From Candidatus Zixiibacteriota bacterium (GTDB lineage: Bacteria > Zixibacteria > MSB-5A5 > GN15 > FEB-12), in contig JACZWU010000005.1 of NCBI GenBank assembly GCA_022571985.1, positions 1 through 64,000 of the forward strand: a stretch of DNA of 64,000 nt, in the 5' to 3' direction. The notes under the pieces were generated by a model. The model saw only the letters and a list, made by a program, of their open reading frames with translations. It made no database searches and was not told the DNA's origin. Numbering within the stretch: position 1 is the first letter of the stretch; every line of letters starts with the position of its first letter. Made by a program: the position numbers and the translations under genes. Positions 4,684-12,779 of the stretch are shown piece after piece.

Positions 4684-7476
4684 ATGAAAGTAAACGAACT
4701 CTACAAATGGGGAATACCTGAAAGAGTGATAAGTGTCTGGAAAGAAAGACAAGGCGAGATGTTACTGCCGGTGCAGTCGAAGGCAATCCGCAAGGGTCTG
4801 CTGGGCGATCAGGGAGATGACAGCAGCAGCCAAAGGGCTAATATGATAATTTCAGCGCCAACCTCGGCCGGCAAATCATTTTGCGCCGAGATGGCCGCAG
4901 TCAAAGTTCTGACCGAGCGCAAGAAAAGCATTCTGCTTTTTCCTTTGCGTTCTCTGGCCGAGGAAAACTATCGGCTGCTTAAAAAGACCTACGAGCCGCT
5001 GGGCGTTAAAATAATAATTGTCACCTCCGACCATCCCGAAAATGACTCACTTTTTCGCGACAGCAAATACAATATAGCTGTGGCAGTATATGAAAAATTT
5101 GATCTTCTCTTAACTTCGGCGCTGGATAGTCTGGTAAATGTCGGCTTAGTGGTTGTTGACGAAATCCAGACTATCGCTGAACCGGGGCGAGGAACTGTCT
5201 TAGAGCGGCTTTTGACAAAGATAGCAGCTTCTGGTTATAAGCTGACAGTTATAGGTCTCTCGGCGGTAATCGGCGACAGCGCTGTCTCGGCGGGAAAGTT
5301 AGCGGACTGGCTGGGGGCGACCCTGGTGGAGGAGACCGCCCGGCCGGTTGATTTAATCCGCGGAGTGGCAGCCGAGGGGCTTTTCTATAACCGTTCCTAC
5401 AACACTGGTGTTGATAATGTCGAGCCGTTTATAACAGCCACAGCAGACGAAAAGCCGTTTGATGCTTTTGTCCGGCAGATAAAAGTAGAGACTGGTCAAA
5501 CCCTTTCCGCCGAGGCGGACTCAGGACAGGCTCCGCTGCCCACCGGCGGTCAGACATTGGTATTCTTAAAATCCCGGGCTGAGACAGTCGAATATGCTTT
5601 CAAACTGGCTGCCGCTGTCTCTGCAAGTGGCGGCTGGACTGAAGCTAAAAATGCTATCGAGCGTCTGACTGAGGAAGAACCGTCGTCCTTAAACCGTACT
5701 TTGCGTCAGGCGCTGGGACGGGGGATAGCCTTTCATAATTCCGACCTGACTTCAACTCAAAGAGAGATTGTCGAAAATGCTTTCCGAAATCGTGAACTGA
5801 AAGTTTTGTTTTCGACTACCACTCTGGCAATGGGGGTCAATCTTTTTGCCGACACGGTTTATCTGGAGACAGTCAAATATATTTCACCGCGTTACGGTCG
5901 TCGTCCCTCGCTGATTCCTATAAGCCAGGCCGAGTTTGATAATATGACCGGCCGGGCCGGACGGCACCGTCATGGCCGCCAAAGCAAGCCGGGGAGAGCA
6001 GTTGTTTTAGCGCACTCCGCTTTAGAAAGAGAAATCCTGTGGAAAAACTACATCGCAGTCGACAAACCAAAGCCGGTCGAGTCTGCTTTTGCAGCCATTC
6101 CTCTGGCTGACTGGGCACTTGATATCATCTGCTCTGGTCTGGCTGATGATATCGACAGTCTTAACCGGGTTTATGCCGCAACTTTTTATACTGCCGGAGA
6201 TGATGACAATAACAACAGTGATAGCCAGCCAGACTTTGACTCCAGCTTAAAGACTCTGCTCGAACTTTCTTTAATAAAAGAAACTTCTGCCAGCGACAAG
6301 TGGCTGCCGACAGCACTGGGCAAAGCAGCAGCCGGGACAGGTTTGTCGGTCAATGAGACGAAAAGTTTCCTGTCTAAATTAGAGTCCGGTTATCCGCAGA
6401 CCTTGTTTGGCTGGATAGCTCTGGCTTTAAGTTCTCCGGATTGGAACGTCCCGCCCGGATTTTTGAACCGTATGGAACTGCTGCAGGAAAGTCCGCTGAA
6501 GATGCTTTATCAGCAGTTTGATTCCGTCTCCGGAGGGCTCGATCAGGCGCGTTTTCTTATTCCTGAAAATCATCAGAGCGAACCGCTGCCGCCTAAAAAC
6601 TCGGCCGCCATAAAAGCGCTTTTGCTTCTGAACAGCTGGTGCAAAGGTCTCTCGGTAGAGCGGCTCGAAGAACTGTTTCAGGTTCATTTGGGACAGGTTG
6701 TTTCGCTGGCAGAGACAGTCTCGCATCTGATTAAGTCGCTTTCTGCAATTGTCGGCGCTAAAGAAAAAGAAAGTCCGCTGATTGATAAACTGCAGAAGTA
6801 TGCTTTTGAAATCCGCCATGGTCTGCCGGCAGAGTTCAGACCATTATACGAGAAATTCAGTTCAGTTTTAAAACGCAGTGACTTTTTAAATCTAAAAAAT
6901 GCCGGTCTGGAATCAATCAGCCAGCTCTGTGAATTTGATGAAGAAAAGTTAAACAAAATAATTAAGGGCAAACAGAAACTGGCTTTGCTCAAAAACAAAA
7001 TTACAATAATTCGAGAGGAGGAGTTTATGTGTTCTCTAAACATCAATCCGGGGACAAACTCGTACAGTGTGCCGACTATGGTGTCACAGAAAGTGGAGCT
7101 CTTAGAAATTGACGGCAGCCCCGACAAAGAACGGTTTGTTGTCAAAATAAACGATCAAGCGGTACGCTTAACCGCCAAGTCGTTTAAATACCTGGCCAAA
7201 CTGGCCTGGTCGCGGGCTAATAATCCGGCAGCGTCCGGCTGGGTTTACAAAGAGGATATCGAGGTCGGCTTCAATCAGGCGCGATATTTATACCGGATGA
7301 AAAACGAGGTCAACGCCGGCCTTGGCTATAACTGGCCGCTGATTGAAAACAACCGTCTGGGATATTATCGTCTCAACGCCGATCCCGATAAAATCAGGAT
7401 AAATGTGGCGAACCTGCAGAATAACCCGGATCATGAGATACGGCAGATAGTATCAGGAGAGGCCGTTCTTAATTAA
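4684..7476 (+). CDS. Ski2-like superfamily 2 helicase with C-terminal winged-helix domain
   Basis: 930 residues. Helicase motifs in order: I APTSAGKS (58-65), Ia FPLRSLAEE (86-94), II DEIQ (159-162, a DExQ/H variant), III LSAV (192-195), IV TLVFLKSRAE (291-300), V STTTLAMGVN (377-386) and VI QAEFDNMTGRAGR (415-427). This is the Hel308/Brr2/Ski2 type of nucleic-acid-dependent ATPase. A helical region with a degenerate helix-hairpin-helix-like segment (about 730-765, NAGLESISQLCEFDEEKLNK) follows. Residues ~800-895 look like an OmpR-type winged helix (VRLTAKSFKYLAKLAW, then FNQARYLYRMKNEV). A perfect SD precedes an in-frame ATG at 7027, so the winged-helix part may also be made alone. Likely role: DNA repair, recombination or defence; the substrate is unknown. 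Confidence 0.8.
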   Translation: MKVNELYKWGIPERVISVWKERQGEMLLPVQSKAIRKGLLGDQGDDSSSQRANMIISAPTSAGKSFCAEMAAVKVLTERKKSILLFPLRSLAEENYRLLKKTYEPLGVKIIIVTSDHPENDSLFRDSKYNIAVAVYEKFDLLLTSALDSLVNVGLVVVDEIQTIAEPGRGTVLERLLTKIAASGYKLTVIGLSAVIGDSAVSAGKLADWLGATLVEETARPVDLIRGVAAEGLFYNRSYNTGVDNVEPFITATADEKPFDAFVRQIKVETGQTLSAEADSGQAPLPTGGQTLVFLKSRAETVEYAFKLAAAVSASGGWTEAKNAIERLTEEEPSSLNRTLRQALGRGIAFHNSDLTSTQREIVENAFRNRELKVLFSTTTLAMGVNLFADTVYLETVKYISPRYGRRPSLIPISQAEFDNMTGRAGRHRHGRQSKPGRAVVLAHSALEREILWKNYIAVDKPKPVESAFAAIPLADWALDIICSGLADDIDSLNRVYAATFYTAGDDDNNNSDSQPDFDSSLKTLLELSLIKETSASDKWLPTALGKAAAGTGLSVNETKSFLSKLESGYPQTLFGWIALALSSPDWNVPPGFLNRMELLQESPLKMLYQQFDSVSGGLDQARFLIPENHQSEPLPPKNSAAIKALLLLNSWCKGLSVERLEELFQVHLGQVVSLAETVSHLIKSLSAIVGAKEKESPLIDKLQKYAFEIRHGLPAEFRPLYEKFSSVLKRSDFLNLKNAGLESISQLCEFDEEKLNKIIKGKQKLALLKNKITIIREEEFMCSLNINPGTNSYSVPTMVSQKVELLEIDGSPDKERFVVKINDQAVRLTAKSFKYLAKLAWSRANNPAASGWVYKEDIEVGFNQARYLYRMKNEVNAGLGYNWPLIENNRLGYYRLNADPDKIRINVANLQNNPDHEIRQIVSGEAVLN
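7016..7029 (+). promoter_or_regulatory. Internal Shine-Dalgarno and in-frame ATG inside the helicase gene
   Basis: AGGAGG (7016-7021), 5 bases, then ATG (7027-7029), in frame with the helicase at codon 782. Initiation here would give a 149-residue protein made of the winged-helix domain only. The same bases encode Arg-Glu-Glu-Glu-Phe, so the match could be a by-product of the protein sequence. Confidence 0.5.
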
Positions 7477-7733: not shown

Positions 7734-10214
7734 ATGATAATTAAGACTAACCAAAATATACCGGTAATAGGCTCCGAAAAAGAAGAAGTCTATCCGCTAA
7801 TGGCCCTGCGCAGCGGGGTGCTTTTCCCGGGCACAAATCTGAGTATTCAGGTAGTCCGCGAAGAAAACATGGCCCTGATAAACTTTTGTCATTCAAAATC
7901 TCAAAATTTTGTGGCAGCTTTTTCTCCGGCAGTAAAAAGTAAAGCCAAATCCGGCAATATTTCGGTTCATCAAATTGGAGTTCTGGCAAAAATCTGCGAT
8001 GTCCGCCAGGGGCCGGGTGAATATAAGACAATTACCATCGAAGGTTTCGAAAGAGTAGTTCTTAAAGAAATCAAAGAGACACAGGAATTTAAGACAGTCT
8101 CGATAGACAGATTGAAAATTTCCTCCCAGGTGCCGGTAAGCGTAAAAAAGCAGGCCAGAGAAGCTCTGCAATTAAGCAAAAAAATAACAGAGCTTGATCC
8201 GAGTTATTCAAGTGAGCAGTTACTTATTTTGAGTGCCAGCCTGGGTGACCCCTCTATGATGGCCGACGAAATTGCATTTTCATTTAGACTTCCGCTGGAA
8301 TCAAAACAGCAGCTGCTGGAAATAATAGATCTGGATGAGCGGTTCACTACCTTAAACAGTCTTCTGACTGATGAGCTGGAAAGAGTAGAATTTCGTCAAA
8401 GTCTCGGCAAAAAGGCAGCTAAAAAAGTCAGGCGCAAACGCGAGGTGGAATTTCTTAAAGAAGAATTAGTCGAAATCAAGCGACTGCTGGGAGACCAGTT
8501 CATAGAAGAAAAAGAAGCCGAGCGGTTTAAAGAACTGGTCAAAGCCTTGCCGCATCTCCCGAATGAAGTTGTCAGCAAGGCGATTATTGAGGCTGACCGG
8601 CTGTCACAGCTCTCCACAGCCTCAGCTGAATATGGAGTTACTAAGAATTATCTGGAATGGCTGCTGTCACTTCCCTGGGGGAAATGTTCGCCGGAAAGTT
8701 ATGACATTGCCGATGTCGAACGAATTCTGTCCAGAGATTACTATGGCCCGACCAATATCAAAGAACAAATTTTGGAGCGTCTTTCTGTCCGCAAACTATT
8801 GGGGGGTCAAAGCGAAGGACCTACCCTCTGTCTGGTCGGCGCTCATGGCACCGGCAAAGCCTCGCTGGCTAAAGCTGTGGCTACTGCCATGGGCAAAGAG
8901 TTTATAAGAATATCAGTCGGCGGTATCAGCGATGTTTCTGAAATAAAAGGTTCGCCTCGTACGTTTCTGGGAGCATTACCCGGTAAAATCATCCGTACTT
9001 TAAGAAACGCCGGCAGCTGTGACCCGGTAATTCTGATTGAAGATATCGATTACTTTAACATTGATAACGACTCCTCTGTTAATATGGCTCTTTTAGAGGC
9101 GATAGACACCCGCTACAACTTTAGATTTTTTGATCAGTATCTGGGGGTTCCCTTTGATTTGAGCAAAGTTTATTTTATCTGTTCAGTCAGATCATTTGAA
9201 GAAATCCCCGAGCAGTTTATACCGCGGCTGGAAATTTTAGAACTCCCCGGCTACATTGCAAAAGAAAAAATAACAATTTCCAAACGCTATATTATTCCAA
9301 GGCTTTTGGAAAAACATGGTATTCAGAAGTCTGAACTGAAATTTTCGGACAAAATTCTGGCCCTGATTATCAGCGATTATACTATGGAAGCGGGACTGCT
9401 CGGTTTTAGCCAGCAGATAGAAAAAATCTGCCGCAAAATTGCCTTAAGAAAAGCTGAAAAGAAGAAAGTTTCCGTCAGTGTAAACGACAAAAATCTTGAA
9501 TCATATCTGGGTCTCGCCCAATACATCCCCGAAAAGGCTGTCAGTCAGCCAGAAATTGGTACCGCCACCGGCCTGGCCTGGACAGGTGCCGGCGGGGAGC
9601 TGATGTTTATCGAAGGGCTCAAGATGAAAGGCAACGGCGAAATCATTACAACCGGTTCTCTTGGTGAAGTAATGCGCGAGTCAATTTTAGCAGCACACTC
9701 CTACGTCCGTTCCAAAGCAGATGTTCTGGCTATTGATCACAACGATTTCAGCGATCTGGATATTCACATTCATTTTCCTTCAGGAGCAATTCCCAAAGAC
9801 GGACCCTCGGCGGGTGTGGCAGTCTGCATGGTGGTGGCGTCGGTAATGGCAGAGCGTCCGATAAGAAACGATATTGCCATGACCGGCGAAGTAACTCTGC
9901 GCGGTAAAATTTTGCCTGTCGGCGGTATAAAAGAAAAAATCTCGGCGGCATTTCGCGCCGGAATTCATGAAATTGCTCTACCAAAAGAAAACGAAAAGGA
10001 CCTGCGGGAGCTGCCCAAAGAAATCATACGCAAGACTAAGTTTATATTTATCGAGCGGGTTGATGAGCTTTTCGAAAAATGTCTGCTTGACTATTCTCCC
10101 TCGTCATATACGCTTGAGAAAATATTTACGGAAGAGATTGCCAAGTCCAAAAAGAAAAAACGCCGCACTACCAAAGGCCGCAAAAGGGCTGCCAAATCAG
10201 CCTCAAAAAAGTAA
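7734..10214 (+). CDS. lon: Lon-family protease with degenerate ATPase site and basic tail
   Basis: 826 residues with full Lon architecture: N-terminal substrate domain (about 18-200), coiled coil (210-260), AAA+ module (350-590) and Ser/Lys protease domain (605-790). The protease dyad is intact: Ser692 in KDGPSAGV and Lys733 in GGIKEK. The ATPase motifs are not. Walker A reads GAHGTGKAS (usual GPPGVGKTS), Walker B ILIEDID (usual LLDEID), the sensor-1 Asn is replaced (FICSVRS against FVATSNS) and the sensor-2 Arg is lost (YTMEAGLLG against YTREAGVRG). The arginine in IPRLE remains. The last ~25 residues are a Lys/Arg-rich histone-like tail that could bind DNA. Probably a specialised paralogue beside a canonical Lon elsewhere; ATP use may be lost or altered. 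Confidence 0.85.
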   Translation: MIIKTNQNIPVIGSEKEEVYPLMALRSGVLFPGTNLSIQVVREENMALINFCHSKSQNFVAAFSPAVKSKAKSGNISVHQIGVLAKICDVRQGPGEYKTITIEGFERVVLKEIKETQEFKTVSIDRLKISSQVPVSVKKQAREALQLSKKITELDPSYSSEQLLILSASLGDPSMMADEIAFSFRLPLESKQQLLEIIDLDERFTTLNSLLTDELERVEFRQSLGKKAAKKVRRKREVEFLKEELVEIKRLLGDQFIEEKEAERFKELVKALPHLPNEVVSKAIIEADRLSQLSTASAEYGVTKNYLEWLLSLPWGKCSPESYDIADVERILSRDYYGPTNIKEQILERLSVRKLLGGQSEGPTLCLVGAHGTGKASLAKAVATAMGKEFIRISVGGISDVSEIKGSPRTFLGALPGKIIRTLRNAGSCDPVILIEDIDYFNIDNDSSVNMALLEAIDTRYNFRFFDQYLGVPFDLSKVYFICSVRSFEEIPEQFIPRLEILELPGYIAKEKITISKRYIIPRLLEKHGIQKSELKFSDKILALIISDYTMEAGLLGFSQQIEKICRKIALRKAEKKKVSVSVNDKNLESYLGLAQYIPEKAVSQPEIGTATGLAWTGAGGELMFIEGLKMKGNGEIITTGSLGEVMRESILAAHSYVRSKADVLAIDHNDFSDLDIHIHFPSGAIPKDGPSAGVAVCMVVASVMAERPIRNDIAMTGEVTLRGKILPVGGIKEKISAAFRAGIHEIALPKENEKDLRELPKEIIRKTKFIFIERVDELFEKCLLDYSPSSYTLEKIFTEEIAKSKKKKRRTTKGRKRAAKSASKK

Positions 10215-10295: not shown

Positions 10296-10457
10296 GATTC
10301 TATAGATTTACGTCGATTGTTCAGCCCGGTGGTCAATCGTACTTCTCTTAAGTTTCGGCGTAAATAGTTACTTCACAGTTTAACTTCGCATAAGGTGAGA
10401 AAATCTGGTCGGCGGGCAGCATGTGATTTTCACAAGTATTGGGATTGGGAGAACAAA

Positions 10458-12779
10458 ATGACAAGGACGCTGATTGTTTCCATCATCCTCTTGGGTCTTT
10501 TTGCGGTCGGAGTGCAGGCACAGGATCCGGGAATTGCTGACACAGTAGAATTAATAGTAACACTATCGCCCGATGCTCAGTCCAATCAATTAAAAGTTCA
10601 ATTAGAAGTATGGGTATTTAACGACGAGGAACTGATCGCAGCAAATATGGGATTTTCCTGGGATAACCAAAATCTGACTTTAGATAGTGCCGTTGCCAGC
10701 GCTCTTACCGATGGAGGATTTCAGATTGGCCCATTCTTTTACGAAGACAACAGTATCGCGATTACTAACGCCAATCGAAGAGTTCTAATGGGTGGTGTAT
10801 CAATATCTCCGCTATTTCCTGCAGATGCAAGCACACGCAGGCTCTGGGTCAGCTATTACTTTACCCTCTCAAGCTGGAATGAATCCGACCAAATAAATAT
10901 CGACACTCTGGAATTTAACGACGCCAGCAAATTTCAATTCGTAAGGGGTGACCAGACTCCGTTTGTTCCTGTCTGGACCGGCGGCTCGAAAATTATCGAC
11001 CCGAATGCGCCTGCTGATATTGTGCTGTCAAAAGATTCGCTGAATTTTAGTTCAATCGAAGGCGGCGCCAACCCGGCTTTTCAGGAGTTTGATATTTTTT
11101 CATCTACGGGTCAAATAATAGATTTCAGTTTAAGCGAAAGTGCCTCATGGTTAATCGTGACGCCGACTTCGGGTAACACCCCCAGAACAATCAGAGTTGA
11201 AATTAATAACATCGGACTAGGTACTGGAAATTATACCGAGACCATAATTGTAAATTCTGCAGCTGCGGCTAATACTCCCCTTGAAGTTGAAATAACTCTC
11301 GAGGTTGCTCCGCCGCCGCCTGTTATAGGTCTGAACCCCGGCATCTTTTTCTTTAGCGCCATAGCCGGTGAGGCAGACCCTGACAGCAAGATTCTTACTA
11401 TTACAAACAGAGGCGGTTCAACTCTCGACTGGTCAGCCACAAATTCTCAAGTCTGGCTCAATTTAAATCCTGTTTCAGGTGGAGACTCAACCGATGTTAC
11501 AGTTGCGATTGACATTATTGGGCTGCCGTTCGGAGATTATACAGATACTATAATAGTCAGTGACCCTGAGGCTACTAACAGTCCGCTTAAAGTCCCTGTC
11601 AATCTTTCGGTAGCTTCAGATTTACCGATAATCGTGGTCGATTCACCTTCTGTTTTTGTCATTATTCAAACCGGGGGAGGGGCCCTTGACTCTGCATTCT
11701 TTTATGTCAGAAATGGCGGAGGCGGAACAATGAATTTCTGGGTAGAAAGCGGTGGTTCACCTCGAATAATTGGCATTGAGCCGGATACGAGCGTAGCTCC
11801 GGATTCGGTCAAAGTTTCTCTTAAACTAACAGGAGGTGTTTCGGGCGATGAATTTCATGACACGGTCTGGGTTTATTCAGACCAGGCCATTAATTCTCCT
11901 GTGCCAGTAGAGATTCTCATACATCTGACTGACAATCCTGCAGAATTGAGAATTTTTCCAGATACAATCGAATATAGTATGTTCGAATGTGACCAGGGAC
12001 TTACTGGTTTAGCACCCATCATTTCTTTCAATGTGTTTAATCTTGGAGGAGACGACCCGCTTGATTTTGAAATAGTTTATGAGTCCGATTGGTTTACTAT
12101 TTCTCCTTTATCAGGCACGGCTGATCAATTGATAAATCTTTTTGCAAAACAAACAGATTTGTCCATAGGGTCATATACAGACACGGTCTTAGTCTATGCC
12201 AGGAAATCAGTGGTTACCCCCGAGACTCTGATAGTAAATTTCGATATTGTGCCGGCTTCGGAAACGCCGAAAATTTTCTTAATGGATTCTGTTTTCGTAA
12301 TGACGGCGCAGGAAGATCACGGCCCGATTATCCCTCGGTATTTTGAAATTAGAAACACGTTTGGCGGTTGTATGGAGTGGAGCATTGAAAACTCTGTTGC
12401 CTGGGCAAATGTAACGGACAGTTCGGGAAACGTTCCTGAGCTGGTTGGTATAAAGGCCAGTGCCTTTGGCCTGACGTTCGGTGAATATGTCGATTCCTTT
12501 TATATAAACGCTCCGGCTGCTTCAAATTCTCCCCGCAAAGTTGAAATGATATTCAAGGTCTGGCGGCTGCATGGTGATAACAATTATGACAATAAAGTCA
12601 ACATATTGGACCTTACATTCTTTGTTGATTTCATTTTTAGAAATTCTGGTTTGGCACCGCAGCCGGAATTTTTAGTGGGTGATGTCAATTGTGATGAAAA
12701 AGTCAATATTATTGATTTGACTTATCTGGTAGACTACATTTTCCGCGGTGGGCCGCCTCCCTGCGGGAATCCGGTATAA
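10458..12779 (+). CDS. Secreted multi-domain protein: BACON-like repeats and C-terminal dockerin-type domain
   Basis: 773 residues from the ATG at 10458, which follows GGGAGAAC and starts a clear signal peptide (cleavage near VQAQ). The first ~170 residues resemble a cohesin-like beta-sandwich (weak). Then come about five ~95-residue beta-sandwich repeats, each with a 'F....G....DFSLSESASWL' style core, a 'W...P.SG' turn and an ending like GDYTDTIIVSD; these resemble BACON or abnormal-spindle-type surface domains. The C-terminus carries two calcium-binding loops (DNNYDNKVNILD and DVNCDEKVNIID) and ends GGPPPC, a dockerin-type module common in FCB candidate phyla. Likely exported and cell-surface or extracellular; no catalytic domain is visible. 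Confidence 0.75.
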   Translation: MTRTLIVSIILLGLFAVGVQAQDPGIADTVELIVTLSPDAQSNQLKVQLEVWVFNDEELIAANMGFSWDNQNLTLDSAVASALTDGGFQIGPFFYEDNSIAITNANRRVLMGGVSISPLFPADASTRRLWVSYYFTLSSWNESDQINIDTLEFNDASKFQFVRGDQTPFVPVWTGGSKIIDPNAPADIVLSKDSLNFSSIEGGANPAFQEFDIFSSTGQIIDFSLSESASWLIVTPTSGNTPRTIRVEINNIGLGTGNYTETIIVNSAAAANTPLEVEITLEVAPPPPVIGLNPGIFFFSAIAGEADPDSKILTITNRGGSTLDWSATNSQVWLNLNPVSGGDSTDVTVAIDIIGLPFGDYTDTIIVSDPEATNSPLKVPVNLSVASDLPIIVVDSPSVFVIIQTGGGALDSAFFYVRNGGGGTMNFWVESGGSPRIIGIEPDTSVAPDSVKVSLKLTGGVSGDEFHDTVWVYSDQAINSPVPVEILIHLTDNPAELRIFPDTIEYSMFECDQGLTGLAPIISFNVFNLGGDDPLDFEIVYESDWFTISPLSGTADQLINLFAKQTDLSIGSYTDTVLVYARKSVVTPETLIVNFDIVPASETPKIFLMDSVFVMTAQEDHGPIIPRYFEIRNTFGGCMEWSIENSVAWANVTDSSGNVPELVGIKASAFGLTFGEYVDSFYINAPAASNSPRKVEMIFKVWRLHGDNNYDNKVNILDLTFFVDFIFRNSGLAPQPEFLVGDVNCDEKVNIIDLTYLVDYIFRGGPPPCGNPV

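Follow-up and report, generated by a model that had tools for sequence, protein, structure and literature searches.

A LonA paralogue with a degenerate ATPase site and a conserved protease in Zixiibacteriota

Lon is a model for an ATP motor coupled to a protease in one chain. The first 64,000 nucleotides of contig JACZWU010000005.1 (assembly GCA_022571985.1, Candidatus Zixiibacteriota bacterium), hereafter the window, encoded a Lon in which five of the seven ATPase hallmark residues were replaced and the protease dyad was intact. Of the 19 Zixiibacteriota families searched, 14 had an orthologue of this protein, here called dLon, in almost every genome. We suggest, with a probability of about 0.55, that dLon arose by duplication of a LonA and retained the protease while abandoning ATP hydrolysis. 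Judging from its sequence, it is most likely a chambered Ser/Lys protease that cuts unfolded or flexible substrates independently of ATP hydrolysis. The gene and its domains were laid out as follows.

7734..10214, + strand: dLon, a degenerate-ATPase LonA paralogue of 826 residues with an ATG start (open reading frame, profile matches, E. coli Lon alignment)
7791..8369, + strand: LON substrate-binding N-domain, residues 20-212 (PF02190, 8.2e-28)
8826..9236, + strand: AAA large subdomain, residues 365-501 (PF00004, 1.1e-15)
8838..8861, + strand: degenerate Walker A GAHGTGKA, residues 369-376, with Lys375 kept and Thr replaced by Ala376 (E. coli Lon alignment)
8964..8984, + strand: pore loop 1, FLGALPG against YIGSMPG (alignment)
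9027..9044, + strand: Walker B, Glu436-Asp437 against Asp-Glu (E. coli Lon alignment)
9189..9191, + strand: sensor-1 site, Asn replaced by Arg486 (E. coli Lon alignment)
9225..9227, + strand: Arg finger, Arg498, kept (E. coli Lon alignment)
9309..9467, + strand: Lon AAA+ lid subdomain, residues 526-578 (PF22667, 3.2e-15)
9399..9401, + strand: sensor-2 site, Arg replaced by Leu556 (E. coli Lon alignment)
9480..10085, + strand: S16 Lon protease domain, residues 583-784 (PF05362, 3.6e-79)
9807..9809, + strand: catalytic Ser692 within KDGPSAG (E. coli Lon alignment)
9930..9932, + strand: catalytic Lys733 (E. coli Lon alignment)
10113..10211, + strand: conserved C-terminal helix (TLEKIFTEEIAK), then a Lys/Arg-rich tail (sequence comparison, AlphaFold2 model)

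The reference was E. coli K-12 Lon from NC_000913, whose numbering is used for substitutions; its sensor-1 (N473), sensor-2 (R542) and Arg finger (R484) were assigned according to PMC9569914. The substitutions in dLon were T363A, D423E, E424D, N473R and R542L, which correspond to Ala376, E436-D437, Arg486 and Leu556, and the Walker B change was a conservative D/E swap. Two hallmark residues survived, Lys375 of Walker A and Arg498 (= R484) of the Arg finger, and the dyad was represented by Ser692 (= S679) and Lys733 (= K722). A first-pass annotation of the DNA had described these Walker A, Walker B, sensor-1 and sensor-2 changes, together with the intact Ser692 and Lys733, the N-terminal domain and a Lys/Arg tail. 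The alignment and the PF02190 match bore out the changes, the dyad and the domain, and the tail was present. Its statement that every ATPase hallmark had changed held for the five replaced sites but not for Lys375 and Arg498. In AAA+ proteins, the Walker A Thr and Walker B Asp bind Mg2+, the Walker B Glu activates water, and the sensor-1 Asn and sensor-2 Arg sense and position the phosphates (PMC8913295). Since the residues for Mg2+, water and phosphate were lost, the dLon ring should not run the hand-over-hand cycle.

dLon scored 694 bits against a cut-off of 608 on TIGR00763, the NCBI endopeptidase La model, which indicated a full-length Lon. The AlphaFold2 model, built as a monomer from an alignment of 14 sequences and not addressing the ring, had a mean predicted local distance difference test score of 73.5 and a predicted template modelling (TM) score of 0.37, and a Foldseek search with it returned LonA structures with poor global TM scores. 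The aromatic-hydrophobic pair of pore loop 1 was kept in the window dLon and was drifting in other families.

Orthologues were searched for in 132 Zixiibacteriota genomes belonging to 19 families (labelled f1-f19), and the order of the window comprised f1-f4. Nearly every genome of this order contained an orthologue of 44-65% identity (93-96% within the genus), and more distant copies, mostly of 37-45% identity (partial copies up to 48%), were found in f5, f7-f13, f18 and f19. Among the 132 genomes, families f6 and f14-f17 and genome G093 contained canonical Lon copies only and no dLon, and dLon was not detected in genomes G035 and G036 (84% and 69% complete). The closest named record among the matches listed was Candidatus Zixiibacteriota, with 95% identity over the AAA+ region. 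The substitutions recurred in all 31 orthologues of the same family, where copy L016 had D-D rather than E-D at Walker B, and in all 50 copies of the order with small variation per site, which is beyond a chance occurrence. The four changes of the first-pass annotation were thus fixed in close relatives, and these altered orthologues excluded the case in which the relatives were canonical and only this copy was altered.

The seven ATPase hallmarks were scored in 81 altered and 30 canonical copies. All of the canonical copies kept all seven hallmarks and none of the altered copies did so: 55 kept two, 12 kept three, 12 kept four, and two kept one. The protease dyad was invariant in the altered copies (Ser679 in 81/81; Lys722 in 80/80 where the residue was present). 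The Walker A Lys was kept in 79 of the 81, being Ile in L011 and Arg in L068, and the Arg finger was kept in 68, having been lost in f7, f8, f11, f12 and f13 with the gene still present. L011 (genome G016, long-read) and L126 (CP070756.1), which are probably one genome, both had the Lys to Ile change (GTGIAA). At sensor-1 the altered copies mostly had R, K, Q, S, T, E, D or L; at sensor-2 they had L, T, S, I, V, G, Q, K, A or R; and where Walker B normally has Glu, they had D, N, P, Q, G, R or E. T363A, D423E and E424D were fixed, not drifting, in f1-f4. Family f10 kept T363 and D423 without E424, N473 and R542, and f13 mostly kept R542 without the Arg finger. Because the lost hallmarks varied by family, the loss looked stepwise and partly parallel.

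The N-domain was missing only in f12 and in two dLon copies of f13. These shorter proteins, of ~567-619 residues, were L091, L092, L212 and L217 (f12) and L076 and L077 (f13), and a gene for a cyclophilin-type peptidyl-prolyl isomerase was located directly upstream of L091 and L092. Single internal stops were found in the draft dLon copies of G022, G032 and G064 and were probably draft errors; in the copy of the congener draft G022 (L006, G022:C11), an in-frame TGA stood just past the catalytic Ser motif.

In quick LG+G4 trees, computed without bootstrap and with the motif columns excluded, the altered copies formed one clade (Shimodaira-Hasegawa-like approximate likelihood ratio test, 100) with the 30 canonical copies outside it, and this result was repeated after 31 Lon sequences from outside the phylum were added. 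The dLon clade was nested inside LonA, and its nearest canonical rows were further LonA copies of f5 and f7. dLon seems to have had a single origin, placed at or close to the base of the phylum. Beyond the phylum, a contig scan was read from its best 80 matches, so that the absence of altered Lon elsewhere was not proven; among the matches listed, the altered ones were Zixiibacteriota or 'bacterium' records. L127 (DYGG01000039.1), labelled Ignavibacterium sp., scored as genome G066 did and was read as a mislabelled Zixiibacteriota contig. The 64 non-Zixiibacteriota loci among the matches listed in the contig and viral scans had canonical hallmarks, none being degenerate, and the 20 Lon copies of outside-phylum genomes were all canonical; one canonical copy in these sets had the equivalent Ser at T363. 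The viral collection gave a single match, L196 (IMGVR_UViG_3300023199_000204, a 316-kb contig), a canonical-motif LonA of ~780 residues. In the open literature searched, neither a degenerate LonA nor any Lon from Zixibacteria was found to be described.

The ratio of nonsynonymous to synonymous substitution (dN/dS) was calculated for the window dLon against two congeners, with canonical copies of the same genus for comparison. It was 0.05-0.09 for the whole dLon gene and 0.007-0.024 for its protease, and 0.07-0.09 for the canonical Lon proteases. Mean pairwise identity of the protease was 0.78 (order) and 0.68 (other families) in dLon versus 0.62 in the canonical copies, whereas that of the AAA large subdomain was 0.62 and 0.45 versus 0.81. 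The share of columns invariant in canonical copies that the dLon rows retained was 94% for the protease, 50% for pore loop 1, 49% for the nucleotide motifs and 61% for the remainder of AAA+ (protease against AAA+, Fisher p = 7e-13). Eighteen protease columns and no AAA+ columns were newly fixed in dLon though variable in the canonical copies. The protease constraint of dLon rose and its AAA+ constraint fell. Taken together, the dN/dS, identity and column data suggested that the AAA+ region was retained as a folded part and that the nucleotide pocket was released from its old constraint.

These rates also indicated that dLon is not decaying. That it is a decaying or mis-assembled lon copy is extremely improbable; the few draft copies with internal stops would fit such an origin, and it was ruled out, together with sequencing error, by the orthologues across 14 families, the dN/dS of 0.05-0.09 and the invariant catalytic dyad.

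The same genome contained two canonical LonA on contig C9, which settled the earlier suggestion that a canonical lon be looked for elsewhere in the genome, and a real LonC homologue, L004 (C2:94328-97630; MtaLonC, 4e-83), with an AAA_32 domain, a LonB lid and Lon_C. Four Lon-family proteins were therefore found in one genome. dLon shared with LonA (TIGR00763, MEROPS S16.001; E. coli Lon) the order of N-domain, AAA+, lid and S16 protease in one chain, the type-A site PKDGPSAG with its Ser-Lys dyad, and the position within LonA in the tree, and its best match in the PDB was the LonA of Thermus (7p6u, 4.7e-155). It differed from LonA in lacking the canonical Walker A and B, sensor-1 and sensor-2 residues, in having a more constrained protease and a less constrained AAA+ domain, and in adding a long basic tail after a conserved helix. 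Overall identity between dLon and the canonical copies was ~36%. By sequence, dLon would be a LonA descendant and not a functional ATP-dependent LonA protease.

LonC (MtaLonC, TTC1975; S16.007) has undergone losses of the same kind and is devoid of ATPase activity; its hexamer binds six nucleotides, and it degrades unfolded proteins (PMC3391209). Degenerate AAA+ motifs and an intact protease dyad were common to LonC and dLon, and the ATP-independent proteolysis of LonC (PMC3391209) is predicted for dLon. However, LonC derives from the LonB side and lacks the LonA N-domain, which dLon has, and it carries specific insertions after the catalytic Lys, with the consensus CX3GLX(G/E) in the segment that joins the catalytic-Lys helix to the following strand (PMC3391209). 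This insertion was missing from dLon, which aligned to LonA without gaps over that stretch; nor did dLon have the LonB-like AAA_32 domain, the loss of the LonA N-domain or the placement in a clade apart from LonA. The match of dLon to MtaLonC was limited to ~100 residues (~1e-7). Membership in LonC was thus ruled out by the N-domain, the missing insertion, the different clade and the separate LonC homologue, in agreement with the separate path that the first reading of the sequence had proposed. LonBA of B. subtilis, another Lon subfamily variant, has a type-A protease site like dLon, but it is membrane-bound, has Walker motifs and differs from LonA in its N-terminal fragment (PMC9569914). As for a membrane anchor of the LonB or LonBA type, the LonA-like domain layout of dLon showed no extra segment. 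The similarity to BrxL was weak (3.5e-17) and confined to the protease-like domain, and BrxL itself is a BREX factor that binds DNA and depends on ATP (PMC10164562).

We propose that dLon would work like LonC without being LonC. It would assemble into a Lon-like ring with a chamber, and its AAA+ layer would serve as a static gate or scaffold; like LonC, this layer might still bind nucleotide, here via the retained Lys and Arg finger. Substrates would be recruited by the N-domain, unfolded or intrinsically flexible polypeptides would enter the chamber and be cut without ATP-driven unfolding, and the ATP-dependent work would be left to the cell's two canonical LonA. That an ATP-independent Lon evolved a second time and independently, from a full-length LonA whose motor was lost by family-specific steps, appears slightly favoured. 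If so, living intermediates with four, three, two or one hallmark left could be compared. A phylum-wide LonA series in which motor residues are lost stepwise while the protease tightens would separate coupling residues from structural ones, and would also be a test of whether the protease ring of a LonA is active in the absence of ATP. Since dLon passes TIGR00763, annotation pipelines would label it an ordinary endopeptidase La, and such proteins would be hidden in databases.

Several observations weighed against a loss of ATP hydrolysis. The AAA+ and lid regions had a dN/dS of 0.02-0.06 within the genus, and, given this continuing purifying selection, the AAA+ domain does something. Most members kept the Walker A Lys and the Arg finger, so weak or altered hydrolysis could in principle occur; binding of Mg-ATP by the E-D Walker B is likewise conceivable; and the aromatic residue of pore loop 1, kept in 65 of the 81 altered copies, would fit residual translocation. 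Two rival explanations were considered. dLon might be a motor-dead subunit in mixed hexamers with one of the two canonical LonA, which would give the ATPase, and dLon the protease sites or the N-domain substrate choice. This was the main rival because the Arg finger, whose action is exerted in trans on a neighbouring subunit, was kept in most families despite the lost sensors; the dLon genomes also showed canonical-type LonA matches, and the AAA+ domain was still constrained. We consider it rather unlikely, as the two proteins shared little more than a third of their residues, the finger was lost in five families without loss of the gene, and a protease constraint far above that of the canonical copies fits a job of its own better. 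The other explanation, that dLon still hydrolyses ATP by means of a rewired site (E-D Walker B, sensor-1 Arg or Lys, kept Walker A Lys and Arg finger), would account for the retention of these two residues, for the three fixed substitutions of f1-f4 and for the purifying selection on AAA+. However, the sensor-1, sensor-2 and Walker B Glu patterns varied by family, which looked like lost constraint and not like one chemistry, and the Walker A Lys itself was Ile in L011 and L126; this explanation appears quite improbable.

A link to DNA was also considered, in which dLon would be a DNA-bound or nucleic-acid-associated protease working through its basic tail with an adjacent helicase:

4684..7476, + strand: Hel308/Ski2-like superfamily 2 helicase, the conserved upstream neighbour, whose partnership with dLon is only putative (profile and gene-order comparison)

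All 14 dLon families had a tail of ~24-52 residues with a mean net charge of ~+8 to +14 in the last 30 residues, placed after a conserved helix that reads TLEKIFAEEIEKAK in the order of the window, and the helicase-dLon gene order was kept in f1-f5, f9 and f10, mostly with gaps of ~30-290 bp. However, many canonical Zixiibacteriota copies also had basic tails, mostly shorter, including C9:489k of the same genome, so the tail was a common trait of these Lon proteins rather than a feature that sets dLon apart. Helicase homologues were present in 126 of the 132 genomes and adjoined dLon in at least seven families, but the helicase also occurred in genomes without dLon and was distant from it in several families. 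In the window, the two genes were separated by 257 bp containing a terminator-like stem-loop, as read from the sequence. A DNA-bound protease is therefore very unlikely, and the DNA tether that the first-pass annotation had suggested as one alternative was not supported as a special feature, because ordinary Lon copies carry such tails too. The claim about every hallmark was likewise not supported; the degenerate ATPase, the kept protease and N-domain and the separate path stood.

An operon of dLon and the Hel308-like helicase was not supported in the window, given the gap and the stem-loop, and the helicase was treated as a conserved neighbour. Downstream, dLon was followed by a BACON/dockerin protein or miaB, an arrangement shared by f1-f5, f9 and f10. 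In the window, this was a BACON-domain protein with a dockerin-like C-terminus (10395-12779), directly downstream of dLon, and it stood beside dLon in most of the order.
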